DNA of 64,000 nt from Vineibacter terrae (GTDB taxonomy: Bacteria > Pseudomonadota > Alphaproteobacteria > Reyranellales > Reyranellaceae): assembly GCF_008039615.1 (NCBI RefSeq), contig NZ_VDUZ01000012.1, forward strand, positions 1-64,000, given 5' to 3'. Below the pieces are notes generated by a model. The model was not told where the DNA came from and did not search any database. It saw only the letters and a list, made by a program, of their open reading frames with translations. A program made the translations under genes and the position numbers. Position 1 is the stretch's first letter. Every line of letters begins with the position of its first letter. This document shows, piece by piece, positions 57,906 through 64,000 of this stretch.

Positions 57906-58820
57906 TCAAGCGATCGCTGATACGACGCGCGGCAGCAGGTGCGCCTCGTGCAGATGCGCGACGAACGCTTCGACCAGGTTGGAACGCAGCCCGGTGCCGC
58001 GGGTCACGATCTCGAAACGCGCAGTGTAGCCCAGCGCCGCCGGCAGCAGCACGCGCATCTCGCCGCGATCGACCCAATGGGCGGCCTGGTGGTCGGGCAG
58101 GTAGCCGATATAGCGGCCCGAGAGCACCAGCAGCGCGATGGCCTCCATGTGGAATGCCGACCCTGCCGGCGGCACGTCGAGGATCTGCTGCTGCGCATAG
58201 CCGTGCGCGATGAAGGCATGGCGGCTGACGCTCTCGACCGTCAGCGCTTCCTCCGCCTTGCCGAACAGGGGATGCTTGCGGCCGCAGACCAGCACCTGCC
58301 GTTCGGTGAACAACGGCTCGTAGCGCAGGCCGGCGCTATGGTGGAAGAACGAGCCGACGCCGACGTGGCAGCGGCCGTCCAGGACGGCCAGCTCGATATT
58401 GTCCGGCACATCCACGGTCACGGTGAGGCGAGCGCGCGACGACCGGCGGGTGAAGCGCTCGATCGCCCGTGACAGACGGCAGGCGGGATTGGTGGCGATG
58501 TTGTCGACGACATGCAGCGACAGATCGCCCGCCAGCCCGCCGCGCAGGCTGGCCACCTCGCCCTGGAAGTCGGCCGTGGCTGCGAACAGCCGCTGCGCCG
58601 CCTGGTAGACGCGCTCCCCTTCTTCCGTCAGCCGGAACCCGCTGCGGCCGCGGTGGCACAGCCGGACCCCGAGCTGCTGCTCAAGGGCCGCCATCTGCGT
58701 GCTGATCGTCGACTGGCCCAGGTTCAGGGCGGCCTGGGCCTGGGTGAAGCCGCCGTGCTCCACGATCCGCGTGAACAGCTGCAGCAGGCGAAAATCACGG
58801 CTGAGGAAGCGGGGCATCAT
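57906..58820 (-). CDS. LysR-family transcriptional regulator
   Basis: The 304-aa protein has the LysR N-terminal HTH (FRLLQLFTRIVEHGGFTQAQ, LGQSTISTQMAALEQQLG) and an effector domain with LVCGRKHPLFGKAEEALT. It lies divergent from the ABC ATPase gene, so may control polyamine-type import. No ribosome site is obvious. The short A/T-rich gap (58821-58850) contains TATATCCGTAGATGT, a possible LysR site. Its convergence with the DUF3592 gene leaves a 49-base gap. Confidence 0.9.
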   Translation of the reverse strand: MMPRFLSRDFRLLQLFTRIVEHGGFTQAQAALNLGQSTISTQMAALEQQLGVRLCHRGRSGFRLTEEGERVYQAAQRLFAATADFQGEVASLRGGLAGDLSLHVVDNIATNPACRLSRAIERFTRRSSRARLTVTVDVPDNIELAVLDGRCHVGVGSFFHHSAGLRYEPLFTERQVLVCGRKHPLFGKAEEALTVESVSRHAFIAHGYAQQQILDVPPAGSAFHMEAIALLVLSGRYIGYLPDHQAAHWVDRGEMRVLLPAALGYTARFEIVTRGTGLRSNLVEAFVAHLHEAHLLPRVVSAIA

Positions 58821-58916
58821 TACTTCTATATCCGTAGATGTAAGCTAGCATGCATCTTGCACCAATGAAACTGAACCGCAATAGTGCCGGCGGAAGCAGC
58901 TTGGAGCGTGGGTGGC

Positions 58917-59021
58917 ATGACGGAGCGGATGGTCATTGGCGGAGCGGGAACGGCAGGCGGCGATCGTGCCCACGACGCCATGCGAGTTCCGGGCCAAACA
59001 GCAGACGGACACGCGGGCTGA
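58917..59021 (+). CDS. possible short upstream ORF overlapping the ABC ATPase start
   Basis: A 34-codon frame (MTERMVIGGAGTAGGDRAHD...) ends in a TGA whose last base is the first base of the ABC ATPase ATG (TGATG). The product resembles nothing known. The overlap could allow coupled translation. It may also be chance in GC-rich DNA. Confidence 0.3.
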   Translation: MTERMVIGGAGTAGGDRAHDAMRVPGQTADGHAG

Positions 59022-60130
59022 TGGCCGGCGCTGCTGCCCAGGCGGCGACAGCCGCTGCACATGCCCTGCAGATCGAGGGCATCGGCAAGCAATACGGTAC
59101 CTTTCATGCCGTGCGTGATGTCTCGCTGCGCATCGACAGGGGCCGGTTCCTGACGCTGCTGGGACCCTCCGGATCGGGCAAGACGACGCTGCTGATGATG
59201 ATCGCCGGCTTCACACGGCCGACGACCGGCCGGCTGCGCCTCGACGACCGCGACATCACCGACCTGCCGCCCGAGCAGCGCAATTTCGGCATGGTGTTCC
59301 AGGGCTACGCCCTGTTCCCGCACCTGACCGTGCGCCAGAACATCGAATTCCCCCTGCAGCTGCGCCGTATCGCGGCGCGGGAACGGGCTGAGCTCTGCCA
59401 GCGGGCGCTGGAGATGGTGCAGCTTCAAGCCCTGGGAGACCGCCATCCGCGCCAGCTCTCCGGCGGCCAGCAGCAGCGTGTCGCGCTGGCCCGCGCGCTG
59501 GTGTTCGGACCCGACCTGCTGCTGCTGGACGAGCCGCTCAGCGCCCTGGACAAGAAGCTCCGCGCTGATCTGCAGGGCGAGCTGCGGCAGCTGCACCAGC
59601 GGCTGGGCACCACCTTCATCTATGTCACGCACGACCAGGAGGAGGCGCTCTCGATGTCGGACGAGATCGTCATCTTCAACCGCGGCTCCATCGTGCAGCG
59701 TGGCAATCCGCGCGAGCTCTACGACACGCCGGCCAGCCACTTCGTCGCCGACTTCCTCGGCCGGTCCAACTTCATCGAGGGCCGGGTCGAGCGCCAGGAC
59801 AGCGGCACGCTCCTCTATCGCGTCGGCGACCTCACCTTGCGACAGGTGCTGGCGGCACCGGTCGTCGCGTCCGATGCGGTGCTCATCGGGCTGCGGCCCG
59901 AGAAGATGCAGCTCGCCAGCGAAGCGCCGGCGCAGGCCAACGCCTTGCCGGCCGTGGTAAAAAGCACGACCTATCTCGGCGCCGACCAGCAGGTGCTGCT
60001 CGACAGCCCGATCGGCGAGATCACGGTGCGGGTTCCGGGGTGGCCGGCCATCGTGCCGCGCGCCGGCGACAAGGTCTGGGCCGCCTGGGCCCCGGACGCC
60101 TCGACGCTCCTGCGCGACGACCGCGCCTGA
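59021..60130 (+). CDS. ABC transporter ATP-binding protein (PotA/spermidine type)
   Basis: The 369-aa ATPase has Walker A LLGPSGSGKTTLLMM, Q-loop VFQGYALFPH, signature RQLSGGQQQRVALARAL, Walker B LLLLDEPLSALDKKLR and H-loop IYVTHDQEEALS. The C-terminal TOBE-like domain (~300-360) is of the kind seen in PotA/polyamine and iron importers. It runs toward, not with, the two permease genes and has no ribosome site of its own. No substrate-binding protein gene lies nearby, so the system's receptor must be elsewhere. Confidence 0.93.
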   Translation: MAGAAAQAATAAAHALQIEGIGKQYGTFHAVRDVSLRIDRGRFLTLLGPSGSGKTTLLMMIAGFTRPTTGRLRLDDRDITDLPPEQRNFGMVFQGYALFPHLTVRQNIEFPLQLRRIAARERAELCQRALEMVQLQALGDRHPRQLSGGQQQRVALARALVFGPDLLLLDEPLSALDKKLRADLQGELRQLHQRLGTTFIYVTHDQEEALSMSDEIVIFNRGSIVQRGNPRELYDTPASHFVADFLGRSNFIEGRVERQDSGTLLYRVGDLTLRQVLAAPVVASDAVLIGLRPEKMQLASEAPAQANALPAVVKSTTYLGADQQVLLDSPIGEITVRVPGWPAIVPRAGDKVWAAWAPDASTLLRDDRA

Positions 60131-60161
60131 GGCGCCAGGGGCGCCGCGCGCCAGACCGCAG

Positions 60162-60962
60162 TCAGGTGGCGTCCTGCCGGCGCCGCGACGTCAACAGGTG
60201 GGCGACGATCCCGATCAGGGTCACGACGATCAGCACCGTCGCCATGGCTGCCACGGACGGGCTGATATTGTCCTGGATGCCGTCCCAGATCTTCTTTGGC
60301 AGGGTGTAGACGCGGCGGCTGGTGATGAACATGGTGACGACCAGCTCGTCCCATGACGTGATGAAGGCGAAGACCGCGCCGGCCAGGATGCCCGGGCGGA
60401 TGCAAGGCACGACCACGCGGTACATCGCCTGGGTCACCGTCGCACCCAGGTTGCGGGCCGCCTGCTCCAGCCGCAGGTCGAAGTTCGCCAGCGATGCCGA
60501 TACCGAGATCACCACGTAGGGCAAGCCCTTCAATGCATGCGCGATGATCAGGCCGGCATAGGTGTCGATCAGGCCGACCTGCACCCAGGCCTGGTAGAAG
60601 CCCAGCGCATGCACGATCGAGGGCACGATGATCGGCGCCAGCATCAGGAAGCGCATCACCTCGGACAGGCGCGACGAGATGCGCCAGCAGCCCACGGCGC
60701 ACAGCGTTCCCAGCACCACGGCGATCACGGTGGCGCTGGCGCCGACCAGCAGGCTGTCGCCGATGCTGTTGCGCCACGCCGCCTCGCTCACGATCGCCTC
60801 GTAGTGGCGCAGCGACCAGCCGTCGACGGGCAGCGACAGGTAGCGGTTCGGGGTGAACGACACCGGCACCACGACGGCGATGGGCAGCAGCAGGAACAGC
60901 AGCCCGATCCACGCGACGAAGGTCGAGGCGCCGCGGCGGCCGGACGGGTTGGCGGCGGTCAT
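60162..60962 (-). CDS. ABC transporter permease (PotC type)
   Basis: The 266-aa membrane protein has six helices and the EAA loop EQAARNLGATVTQAMYRVVV, the contact with the ATPase. It starts within the last bases of the upstream permease (ATGA overlap). Its location downstream of a PotB-type gene and its sequence suit polyamine or similar cation import. It is convergent with the ATPase gene, whose 3' end lies 31 bases away. Confidence 0.92.
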   Translation of the reverse strand: MTAANPSGRRGASTFVAWIGLLFLLLPIAVVVPVSFTPNRYLSLPVDGWSLRHYEAIVSEAAWRNSIGDSLLVGASATVIAVVLGTLCAVGCWRISSRLSEVMRFLMLAPIIVPSIVHALGFYQAWVQVGLIDTYAGLIIAHALKGLPYVVISVSASLANFDLRLEQAARNLGATVTQAMYRVVVPCIRPGILAGAVFAFITSWDELVVTMFITSRRVYTLPKKIWDGIQDNISPSVAAMATVLIVVTLIGIVAHLLTSRRRQDAT

Positions 60963-61801
60963 GACTTGGCTCCGAACACTTCGCGCAGATTGGCGAACCG
61001 CGACACCGCTGCCAGCAGCGCGATGACCCCCACCAGCAGCGTGACCGCCAGCATCGAGCCCGTGCCCCAGTTCAGCGCCTCCATGATCTGGACGGCGACG
61101 TACTCGGCGATCATCACCGTCTTGCCGCCGCCCAGCAGGGCCGGCGTGATGTAGAAACCGAGCGAGAAGATGAAGAGCAGGATGCCGGCGCTGATGATGC
61201 CGGGCATGCTGAGCGGCAGGAACACGCGCCAGAAGGCAGTGAAGCGCGATGCGCCCAGCCCGCGCGCGGCCGGCACCAGGCGCGAATCGATGCCTTGCAT
61301 GTTGGCGAAGATCGGCAGCACGGCGTAGGGGATGAGGTAGTGGACCATGCCGATCACCACGCCGAGCTCGTTGCGCACCAGCGGCAGCGGCGTATCGATA
61401 AGGCCCATCTCCATCAGCGCCGTGTTCACCAGCCCGCGGCTCTGCAGCAGCGTCAGCCAGGCGAAGCCGCGCACCAGCACCGACAGCCAGAACGACAGCA
61501 GCACGATGAACAGCATCCAGACGCGTCGCTCCGGCGGCGCCTGCAGCATCGCGTAGGCGATGGCATAGCCGATCACCAGCGACAGCGCCGTCGTGATGAC
61601 GCCGATACGCAGCGTCGTCAGCATGATGTTGTGGATCGCCGTGCTCGACAGCAGCTTCTCGTAGTTGCCGAAGCCCGGCGTCGGTACGGTCACGCTCAGC
61701 CACAGCACCTTGGCCAGCGGATAGAAGTAGAACGCCGTCAGCACGGCGAGCGGGATCAGGATGAAGATCCAGTATGTCCGGGTCGCATGATCACGCTCCA
61801 T
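60959..61801 (-). CDS. ABC transporter permease (PotB type)
   Basis: The 280-aa inner-membrane protein begins RTYWIFILIPLAVLTAFYFY, has six helices and the EAA loop VPAARGLGASRFTAFWRVFL. Its TGA overlaps the ATG of the second permease. The pair would work with the ATPase on the other strand. An operator-like array in the divergent region upstream (61853-61903) may control it together with the amidinotransferase gene. Confidence 0.92.
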   Translation of the reverse strand: MERDHATRTYWIFILIPLAVLTAFYFYPLAKVLWLSVTVPTPGFGNYEKLLSSTAIHNIMLTTLRIGVITTALSLVIGYAIAYAMLQAPPERRVWMLFIVLLSFWLSVLVRGFAWLTLLQSRGLVNTALMEMGLIDTPLPLVRNELGVVIGMVHYLIPYAVLPIFANMQGIDSRLVPAARGLGASRFTAFWRVFLPLSMPGIISAGILLFIFSLGFYITPALLGGGKTVMIAEYVAVQIMEALNWGTGSMLAVTLLVGVIALLAAVSRFANLREVFGAKS

Positions 61802-61852
61802 GTTCCTGACCTATCCGGCCGTTGATCCGGCTTCCATATGATTTCGTCGATC

Positions 61853-61903
61853 TTTGCTTCCGATCGGAACGAAGCAAAAACATTTCACTTGCTCTTGCTT
61901 CCG
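61853..61903. promoter_or_regulatory. TTGCTTC operator-like array
   Basis: TTTGCTTC (61853-61860) and GAAGCAAA (61871-61878) form an 8-bp inverted repeat with a 10-base spacer. TTGCTTCCG recurs at 61895-61903 as a direct repeat of 61854-61862. Three half-sites lie in the divergent promoter region between the permeases and the amidinotransferase gene. This is strong symmetry, likely a regulator binding site. Confidence 0.65.
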
Positions 61904-61977
61904 CCGCGCGCGTTTTCTCGCGATCGGCAAAGCGTTGCAAGGCGTCCGTGTCGCCGGCGCCGGGAGTTGAGCAAACG

Positions 61978-62847
61978 ATGACATGGTCGGTCGATTCGGA
62001 AACCGGACGCCTTCGCGATGTCCTCCTGTGCCAGCCGGATCACTACACGTGGCTACCCTACAACACCGTCGCGCAGCGCACGCTGTCAGAGGGCGGCAGC
62101 ATCGACGCGCAGCAGCTCCATCGCGAGTTCCGCGAGTTCGAGGATGCGCTGGCCCGTGCCGACGTGCGCTGCCATTACCTGGAGCGCGACGAGCAGCTGC
62201 CCTATCAGGTCTACACGCGCGATTCGAGCCTGATGACGCCGTGGGGGCCGGTCATCCTGCAGCTGATGCGCCCGCAGCGGCGCGGCGAGGTGCGCGCCGT
62301 GGTCGAGTTCTATCAGGACCGCCATCCGCGCTGGCACTGGAGCACGGCGGGCAGCATCGAGGGCGGCGACATCCATATCATCCGTCCCGGCCTGCTGCTG
62401 ATCGGCCACTCCGGCGAGCGCACGACCGACGTTGGCGCCCGGCAGCTGGCGGCGGCGTTCGAGGCCAAGGGCTGGGAGGTGCGCCTGCAGCCGTTCCAGG
62501 AGCATTTCCTGCATCTGGACGTGCTGTTCTGCATGGCCGCTCAGGGCCTGGCTGTCGCCTGCGTCGATGTGCTCGACGACGACTTCACCGCCTGGCTCGG
62601 AGGCAAGGGGATCGAGCTGATCCCGGTTTCCTATCGCGACACTATGCGCCTGGGCTGCAACCTGCTGAGCCTCGGCGATGATCGCGTGATCTCGCCACGG
62701 CAGAATGTCGAGCTGAACGCCCGGCTGCGCGCCCACGGGCTGGTCGTCTACGACCCCGAGCTGTCGTTGTTCACGCGCGGCGGCGGCGGCGCGCACTGCA
62801 TGAGCATGCCGCTGGCGCGCGACCCGCTCGCCCCGACGCATTCCTGA
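61978..62847 (+). CDS. amidinotransferase-fold enzyme (arginine deiminase / DDAH / amidinotransferase superfamily)
   Basis: The 289-aa guanidino-modifying enzyme has the catalytic cysteine in GGGGAHCMSMPL, the histidine in HFLHLDVLFCM, and acidic residues in YTRDSSLM and SIEGGDIH. The superfamily includes arginine deiminases, dimethylarginine hydrolases and glycine amidinotransferases. GGGAGTTGAG lies upstream of ATG 61978; an upstream frame from 61822 is not homologous. It lies before a creatininase-family gene and opposite a polyamine-type importer, which fits guanidino-compound use. Confidence 0.87.
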   Translation: MTWSVDSETGRLRDVLLCQPDHYTWLPYNTVAQRTLSEGGSIDAQQLHREFREFEDALARADVRCHYLERDEQLPYQVYTRDSSLMTPWGPVILQLMRPQRRGEVRAVVEFYQDRHPRWHWSTAGSIEGGDIHIIRPGLLLIGHSGERTTDVGARQLAAAFEAKGWEVRLQPFQEHFLHLDVLFCMAAQGLAVACVDVLDDDFTAWLGGKGIELIPVSYRDTMRLGCNLLSLGDDRVISPRQNVELNARLRAHGLVVYDPELSLFTRGGGGAHCMSMPLARDPLAPTHS

Positions 62848-62870
62848 TCGATCTTCCAAGGAGAACGCCC

Positions 62871-63707
62871 ATGGCCCAGCCCGCATCGTCCGACTACCGT
62901 TCGGTCCCGCTGTTCGACGAGATGACCTCGCCGGAGGTGGCTGCCGCGATCGCCAGCGACGCCGCGATCTTCGTCTCGCTGGGCGCCACGGAGCAGCACG
63001 GCGCGCACCTGCCGCTGGGCTCCGATACGATGCAGGGCCTCGACATCTCGCGCCGCGCCGTCCATCGGCTGCAGCAGGAAGGCATTGCCGCGATCGTCGG
63101 GCCGGTCATCCCCTTCGGTCCGCGTCCTTTCCTCAGCGAGACGCCGCGCGACTATCCGGGCACCGTCAACATCTCCAACAACACGCTGCGCATCCTGCTC
63201 GAGGAAGTCTGCCGCGAGCTCATCGGCCAGGGCTTCCGGCGCATCTACCTGGTGCTCGCCAATGCCGAAAGCGATCCGCCGATGCAGATCGTGGCCAAGG
63301 AGCTGAGCGAAACGACGGAGGCGAACCTCGTCACCCTGAACTGGCTGGTCGGCGTGCGGCCGCACTATCCCAAGTTGATGAAGGCCACCAAGCCACAGGG
63401 CCATGGCGGCGAGGGCGAGACCTGCCGCATGCTGGCCACCGCGCCGCATCTGGTGCGCATGAACGAAGCGCGGCCCTGGCACCCGACCGTGCCCGACGGC
63501 GTTCCCTTCGCCGACTACCTGCCCTATCTCGGCGGCGGCGTGGGCCGCTACAAGATGCCTGATCCGTTCTTCGCCGGCTTCAGCGACGGCATCACCGGCG
63601 ATCCGCAGCTCGCCAGCGCCGAGGTCGGCGAGAAGGTCTACGAGCTGGTGACCGACTGGATCACCTCGATCGTGAAGTTCGATCTGGCCACGACGAAAAA
63701 AGGCTGA
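62871..63707 (+). CDS. creatininase-family amidohydrolase
   Basis: The 278-aa metalloenzyme family opens cyclic amides such as creatinine. Ligand positions visible are the Glu/His of SLGATEQHGAHLPLGSD and the Glu of GHGGEGETCRMLAT. The length fits the family. AGGAGAACGCC precedes the start by about 6 bases. It lies 23 bases after the amidinotransferase-fold gene and 19 bases before a Rieske oxygenase gene, probably as one operon. Substrate may be a cyclic guanidino compound, not necessarily creatinine. Confidence 0.9.
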   Translation: MAQPASSDYRSVPLFDEMTSPEVAAAIASDAAIFVSLGATEQHGAHLPLGSDTMQGLDISRRAVHRLQQEGIAAIVGPVIPFGPRPFLSETPRDYPGTVNISNNTLRILLEEVCRELIGQGFRRIYLVLANAESDPPMQIVAKELSETTEANLVTLNWLVGVRPHYPKLMKATKPQGHGGEGETCRMLATAPHLVRMNEARPWHPTVPDGVPFADYLPYLGGGVGRYKMPDPFFAGFSDGITGDPQLASAEVGEKVYELVTDWITSIVKFDLATTKKG

Positions 63708-63726
63708 TGCCAGCGCGGAGGCGATC

Positions 63727-64000
63727 ATGAATGCGGACATCGAGAAACAGAAGCGCGCCCTGCGCGATGCGTTGCCGGCGTTGGAGCAGCCGGTAGCGCA
63801 GGCCGAAGGCCTGCCGGCTTTCGTCTATACCGATGCCTCGTGGTTCGAGGCCGAGCGCCAGGCGCTGTTCGCGGCCGGCTGGATGGCAGTGGCCTTCAAG
63901 AGCGACGTGCCCGAGCCGGGCTCGCTGGTGCCGGTCGAGATCGCCGGCTGGTCGCTGCTGGTGACGCGCGCCCGCGACGACACGATCCGCGTCTTCCACA
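63727..64000 (+). CDS. Rieske non-haem iron oxygenase, alpha subunit (5' part)
   Basis: The frame starts MNADIEKQKRALRDALPALE and reads TDASWFEAERQALFAAGW, typical of the N-terminus of ring-hydroxylating or carnitine/choline-type Rieske alpha subunits, followed by the first strands of the Rieske domain (EIAGWSLLVTRARDDTIRVF). The CxH...CxxH cluster lies beyond the window edge. GGAGG lies 8 bases before the ATG. Likely an N-demethylating or hydroxylating enzyme acting after the creatininase step. Incomplete at the 3' end. Confidence 0.85.
   Translation, partial: MNADIEKQKRALRDALPALEQPVAQAEGLPAFVYTDASWFEAERQALFAAGWMAVAFKSDVPEPGSLVPVEIAGWSLLVTRARDDTIRVFH

Follow-up and report, generated by a model that had tools for sequence, protein, structure and literature searches.

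Both metabolites and drugs number among the guanidino compounds, which are rich in nitrogen, and bacterial routes for them continue to be discovered. One such route is the methylguanidine hydroxylase and lyase pathway (PMC12508155), which includes a 2-oxoglutarate dioxygenase and a guanidine carboxylase and is controlled by a riboswitch. Here we describe a gene cluster in a 64,000-nt stretch of Vineibacter terrae DNA (contig NZ_VDUZ01000012.1, positions 1 to 64,000; hereafter the window), where genes for an ADI/DDAH-fold hydrolase (the deiminase below), a creatininase-family hydrolase and a Rieske oxygenase run together beside an importer and a LysR-family regulator. The cluster would have in common with the methylguanidine pathway an oxygenase-based processing of guanidino compounds beside a guanidine-degrading enzyme, but it has a Rieske oxygenase instead of the 2-oxoglutarate dioxygenase and a deiminase instead of the carboxylase, and its only Rfam match is a tRNA. 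That search covered 19 kb of the cluster region at the gathering threshold and returned the one tRNA only, and on this basis we set aside a guanidine riboswitch or other known structured RNA. Our literature search returned no publication combining the searched terms, only work on related topics. What is new about the gene set is how it combines known families; it is not a new kind of system.

The initial annotation had described an amidinotransferase-fold enzyme, a creatininase-family enzyme and a Rieske oxygenase as running together, and Pfam matches bear this out: all three genes lie on the plus strand, with 23 bp between the deiminase and creatininase-family genes and 19 bp between the latter and the Rieske gene. 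It had taken the cluster to be shorter than it is, since the ATPase, LysR and solute-binding protein genes also lie in the same stretch. The set spans window positions 57906–63707 and runs onward along the contig (C12) to 66155, in the order LysR regulator, PotA-type ATPase, PotC-type permease, PotB-type permease, repeat region, deiminase, creatininase-family hydrolase, Rieske alpha subunit and SBP_bac_8 binding protein (Table 1). When the sequence is extended past 64 kb, as had been advised, the Rieske gene proves complete and is followed by the binding-protein gene. The source genome is 8.76 Mb in 135 contigs, and window coordinates are the same as contig coordinates. Tentatively, and with a probability that we put a little short of even, we read the locus as a catabolic cluster under local regulation whose substrate is a cationic guanidino carboxylate; we infer the substrate class, the order of the steps and the placing of all three enzymes in one pathway.

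Importer, hydrolase and oxygenase genes in other genomes

Relatives of the creatininase-family hydrolase and of the Rieske oxygenase are linked to a matching importer elsewhere, and thus importer, hydrolase and oxygenase form a conserved unit. All three occur together in the window and in one other genome, G195. A Bosea plasmid (locus L074) has the importer and the hydrolase along with an NtaA/DmoA-family FMN monooxygenase, and no Rieske relative was found in that stretch, while a short contig of genome G363 carries the permeases, binding protein and Rieske oxygenase. The permeases at these three loci are 64–71% (PotC-type) and 66–70% (PotB-type) identical to those of the window. Genome searches with the deiminase, creatininase-family hydrolase, binding protein and Rieske oxygenase scored at most 5–6 candidates per genome. 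Among 347 genomes, with at most five candidates scored in each, the two closest Rieske relatives scored are those of G363 (47%) and G195 (48%), and both adjoin the matching permeases and binding protein (64–71%); the top plasmid match, among the best 20 of 926 records, is at 33%. Relatives of the creatininase-family hydrolase at E ≤ 1e-30 are limited to G195 (60%) and G422 (34%) among 384 other genomes of the class, and among 72,556 plasmids only the Bosea protein (62.5%) is at least 60% identical. Both of the close relatives, in G195 and Bosea, are linked to importer genes 58–69% identical to the window's. Searches of 397 other genomes from the phylum at E ≤ 1e-50, and of the single additional genome in G195's family at E ≤ 1e-60, found no relative.

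The importer is of the PotABCD type and is complete, with an ATPase, two permeases and a binding protein; its genes form three transcription units here, whereas those of Bosea lie in one run. It had been labeled a polyamine-type importer lying opposite the enzymes, and the permease genes are indeed on the opposite strand, but the label is too narrow, since GABA and opine binders and carnitine-type clusters enter the comparison as well. Among the solved structures nearest to the binding protein are those of GABA-, polyamine- and opine-type proteins (6dgv, 4eq7 and the agropine permease 6hly), and the top match, 4i1d, carries no specific name. For the comparison of importer loci we used 18 loci with a binding protein at least 41% identical, made up of nine of the 16 other genome places and nine of the 19 plasmid records. 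At two of them, on Thioclava and Palleronia plasmids (L094 and L096), the importer subfamily (42–44%) sits in carnitine/gamma-butyrobetaine-type clusters annotated with a TauD dioxygenase, BKACE and carnitine 3-dehydrogenase. A Gfo/Idh oxidoreductase (48–54%; partial in G363) is present at all three of the nearest importer loci (Bosea, G195 and G363), and a polysaccharide-deacetylase-family protein, for which the best NCBIfam model is the allantoinase PuuE, far under its cutoff, is present at two of the three, the two copies being 77% identical to each other. Contigs are short at some of the loci compared (4.9 kb for L084, 6.9 kb for L065).

The three enzymes

The creatininase-family hydrolase shares family PF02633 with creatininase (creatinine amidohydrolase, 1j2t), and its Glu41, His43, Asp52 and His178 align with Glu34, His36, Asp45 and His178 of that enzyme, residues that we take to be functional, as we do Trp174. 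At the position of creatininase His120, which we take to be a metal ligand, the window protein has Asn131 in pairwise alignments or Glu133 in the profile alignment, and a His appears in neither for any of the three clade members. The segment around Trp174 falls in an alignment gap and has no counterpart, and here too the three members agree. The best NCBIfam model is TIGR04448, matched at 82.7 bits where the cutoff is 235. On these comparisons the clade probably does not consist of standard creatininases, and ring opening by a true creatininase is unsupported or unproven, as is the methylated substrate that was first suggested.

In the Rieske oxygenase the CxH...CxxH cluster motif, the bridging Glu and the 2-His-1-carboxylate iron site are intact. 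Its best solved structure is CntA and its best NCBIfam model GbcA, both Group V enzymes with which it has the bridging Glu and the iron-ligand motif in common. PMC10952381 and PMC7948474 give a Cys-X-X-Cys next to the iron as a feature of some Group V oxygenases, and Tyr203 as one of group Va. Unlike CntA, the window protein lacks the Cys pair (the motif is GGIEDYHIPFVHP) and has a Gly at the position of the cation-binding Tyr203.

The deiminase is a member of the ADI/DDAH superfamily (PF02274; NCBIfam arcA and DiMArgaseDdah) by its fold family and by the motifs TRD, EGGD, HLD and HC. It passes the broader Pfam cutoffs for these families but is shorter than ADI and falls far below the NCBIfam cutoffs, with 77–85 bits against 414–489 for ADI and 46–52 against 300–450 for DDAH. 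Arg81-Asp82, Arg101, Glu128-Gly-Gly-Asp131, Arg148, His179, Asp181 and Cys274 are invariant in all 31 aligned members, our own included, and from the alignment with ADI we take these to include the catalytic Cys, His and Glu and the guanidino-binding Asp. Arg101 and Arg148 are presumably the equivalents of the carboxylate-binding Arg185 and Arg243 of ADI, so that both of these arginines would be kept. Gly269, five residues before the Cys in the alignment to ADI structures, is also invariant (31/31) and stands where we take ADI to have Arg401. With Arg401 replaced, specificity for L-arginine is unlikely, and since the guanidino and carboxylate residues are kept, the enzyme probably acts on a non-arginine guanidino acid.

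Deiminase relatives at E ≤ 1e-20 occur in 20 of the 384 other genomes of the class and in none of the 74 other genomes of the window's taxonomic family; a further contig scan gave distant matches only, which were not used. We compared 28 loci (L043–L070), namely 20 of the 23 other genome places, leaving out G111, G335 and G411 (the genus of G238), and eight of the 24 plasmid records. The relatives (38–61%) stand in varied settings, some of them near M20 hydantoinase/carbamoylase-family hydrolases or amidohydrolases. Importer permease relatives lie near five of the 28 (L050, L053, L057, L066 and L067), and one locus has a Rieske relative beside the deiminase: in G236, 4 bp separate a 41% deiminase relative from a second, distant Rieske gene (34% over 205 aa; L069:1535-3488).

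On three rhizobial plasmids (L045, L046 and L047), a deiminase relative (47–49%) occurs with an amidase, an ABC importer, a class III aminotransferase and a BKACE gene, and a carbamoylase-type hydrolase match is full length in L045 and partial in L046 and L047. On three others, of Pararhizobium, Phyllobacterium and Roseovarius (L050, L095 and L098), a DDAH-family gene, an amidohydrolase, a LysR gene and a PotABCD-type importer recur together, perhaps as another guanidino-acid pathway.

The TTGCTTC repeats and the LysR regulator

An inverted and a direct TTGCTTC repeat had been noted between the divergent genes, and both are there: the dyad has 8-bp arms that match exactly across a 10-nt spacer, and a third copy of the heptamer follows. 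The bare heptamer is not enriched in the window (five found versus 3.8 expected), and TTGCTTC facing its own complement at a gap of 6–14 nt is expected 0.00 times. The exact N10 dyad occurs once in the 8.76-Mb genome, and none of 1000 shuffles reached it. Because forms with up to two mismatches are not enriched genome-wide (10, versus 26 for a backward-read control), the dyad is a local site, and a genome-wide regulon is ruled out. A terminator is ruled out as well, since both flanking genes lead away from the dyad and the terminator scan reported no site there.

A degenerate copy with three mismatches stands at the LysR start codon; when its 287-bp region, one of 12 tested, was shuffled 1000 times, 13 shuffles gave as good a match (uncorrected), and copies at this level are expected 0.38 times in 19 kb. 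A dyad between divergent genes and a weaker copy where the LysR gene starts are consistent with a LysR protein that acts both on its own gene and at the divergent promoters, and we infer from this arrangement that the regulator binds the dyad and controls the divergent transcripts. LysR relatives occur beside related genes elsewhere, one (39%) adjoining the Bosea cluster and others (33–39%) divergent from the deiminase relative at five of the 28 loci (L043, L044, L049, L057 and L066).

Candidate pathway and competing explanations

In the pathway that we favor, the LysR regulator would sense a guanidine-bearing cationic carboxylate and would control the two divergent transcripts through the dyad and half-site at 61853–61901, and its own gene through the dyad at 58820. 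The PotABCD-type importer, of the GABA/opine type, would take up the compound. The Rieske oxygenase would hydroxylate a carbon beside a nitrogen so that the C–N bond breaks, as in N-dealkylation, the creatininase-family enzyme would hydrolyze a cyclic or open amide, and the deiminase, by Cys-His-acid chemistry, would hydrolyze the guanidino group, releasing ammonia (or an amine) and leaving a ureido acid. The cluster is a small, testable enzyme set from families with uncertain substrates, namely the creatininase clade and the deiminase family, and its binding protein and regulator give direct access to substrate identity.

A guanidino theme is plausible from the company that these genes keep. 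The Bosea cluster includes two agmatinase/arginase-family ureohydrolases, and genome G409 (L100) has a ureohydrolase, 51% identical to that of Bosea, at a distance of 1.8 kb from a Rieske relative (41%); the G409 stretch showed no importer gene, and a 50% deiminase relative is on another contig of that genome. An ADI/DDAH-fold or ureohydrolase gene occurs at seven of the 18 other importer loci (L050, L074, L090, L091, L095, L098 and L099), a count that is given without a background rate and whose query proteins came from L074 and L095. Three of the seven (L050, L095 and L098) are on plasmids previously listed by the deiminase search, and without them the count is four of 15; the matches at L091 and L099 are weak (27–32%). 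A ureohydrolase in place of the deiminase elsewhere suggests that the conserved oxygenase and creatininase-family steps handle another part of the molecule. We can go further and propose, more doubtfully, that the guanidino-removing step is swappable, with a deiminase here and a ureohydrolase in Bosea and perhaps G409, around a conserved core made up of a creatininase-like hydrolase whose metal site is altered, a Rieske oxygenase without the carnitine-type hallmarks and a dedicated importer, and that the whole is a route, not yet described, by which a guanidino acid of cyclic or N-substituted form is broken down.

Several results weigh against a guanidino pathway built from all of these genes. 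No deiminase relative at E ≤ 1e-20 was found in G195 or G363 (the latter 78% complete), nor is there a deiminase in the Bosea stretch, so that a single genome supports placing the deiminase in the pathway. Creatininase relatives are absent from all 28 deiminase loci, and no other locus examined holds deiminase, creatininase-family and Rieske genes together. At 11 of the 18 importer loci no guanidino enzyme is present, and two of these are the carnitine-type clusters, in which the importer subfamily occurs without guanidino enzymes. Neither the G195 nor the G363 stretch yielded an ATPase gene, and the window cluster has neither a Gfo/Idh nor a polysaccharide-deacetylase-family gene nearby. The dyad is not conserved in nine regions at the Bosea, G195 and G363 genes, where the best matches have 4–7 mismatches (the best, with four, lies between PERB and SBP in G195 and was reached by 50 of 1000 shuffles, uncorrected), and the region upstream of the window's own binding-protein gene has no dyad either, its best match having seven mismatches. 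Finally, and also in contrast to CntA, no Rieske reductase gene was recognized by eye among the flanking open reading frames (ORFs), no profile search having been aimed at one.

The absence of a deiminase from G195, G363 and the Bosea stretch lends weight to an explanation that we consider rather unlikely, in which the core genes serve a substrate free of any guanidino group, either a cationic acid resembling betaine or GABA or a cyclic amide, and the deiminase is a recent passenger with another purpose. The carnitine-type settings of the importer relatives and the GbcA and CntA matches of the Rieske oxygenase point in this direction. However, the operon begins with the deiminase gene, which is closely spaced with the next, ureohydrolases accompany the same importer in Bosea and a Rieske relative in G409, and the Rieske oxygenase lacks the CntA Cys pair and the cation-binding Tyr. 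Of the guanidino uptake and breakdown suggested in the initial annotation, the conserved unit is supported and the general theme is plausible, given the ureohydrolases of Bosea and G409, while the deiminase as a core member is unsupported in G195, G363 and Bosea.

Degradation of creatinine, creatine or a close analogue, with the creatininase-family enzyme opening creatinine, the deiminase converting creatine to N-carbamoylsarcosine and the Rieske oxygenase demethylating, is suggested by the family names, by TIGR04448 being the hydrolase's best NCBIfam model and by the M20 hydantoinase/carbamoylase-family hydrolase near deiminase relatives in L045 and L049. We regard it as improbable, because the hydrolase falls so far short of the TIGR04448 cutoff and all three clade members lack the His120 and Trp174 features; moreover, creatinase, sarcosine oxidase and carbamoylsarcosine hydrolase were not recognized by eye among the listed ORFs, where no dedicated search was made. 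We give equally little credence to a chance neighborhood, in which importer and Rieske oxygenase serve one substrate and the two hydrolases have unrelated functions. In its favor, the exact gene set was seen in no other genome examined and deiminase relatives have very varied contexts, but the association of creatininase-family and Rieske relatives with the same importer in other lineages is hard to explain by chance, and operon spacing also argues against it.

Table 1. Features of the cluster, in window coordinates that continue along the contig beyond 64000
Feature	Coordinates	Strand	Basis or remark
LysR-family regulator, probable cluster controller	57906..58820	-	Pfam HTH_1, LysR_substrate
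Degenerate dyad copy TTACTTC-N10-GATGTAA, at LysR start codon	58820..58843	+	3 mismatches
PotA-type ABC importer ATPase	59021..60130	+	ABC_tran, TOBE_2; 58% to Bosea L074
PotC-type importer permease	60162..60962	-	BPD_transp_1; best NCBIfam model PotC, below cutoff
PotB-type importer permease	60959..61801	-	BPD_transp_1; best NCBIfam model PotB, below cutoff
Perfect inverted repeat TTTGCTTC-N10-GAAGCAAA, probable operator	61853..61878		Between divergent genes
Third half-site TTGCTTC, direct repeat of first arm	61895..61901	+	Starts 41 bp after first arm
ADI/DDAH-fold hydrolase, probable guanidino-acid deiminase	61978..62847	+	Pfam ADI 97 bits, DDAH_eukar 71 bits
Creatininase-family hydrolase, distinct clade	62871..63707	+	PF02633 165 bits vs cutoff 31
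Rieske oxygenase alpha	63727..64962 (window ends at 64000)	+	Rieske 65 bits, Ring_hydroxyl_A 86 bits
SBP_bac_8 solute-binding protein of importer	65049..66155 (contig, beyond window)	-	

Neighboring genes to which no Pfam or NCBIfam scan was applied were named from the record annotation or by eye. Elsewhere in the genome, relatives of the Bosea deacetylase (54%, contig C25) and ureohydrolase (46%, contig C23) occur with no other cluster genes beside them. Farther along C12, at about 66905–68142, a gene that by eye encodes a DctA-type dicarboxylate transporter appears to be split into two frames, through a frameshift or an assembly error.

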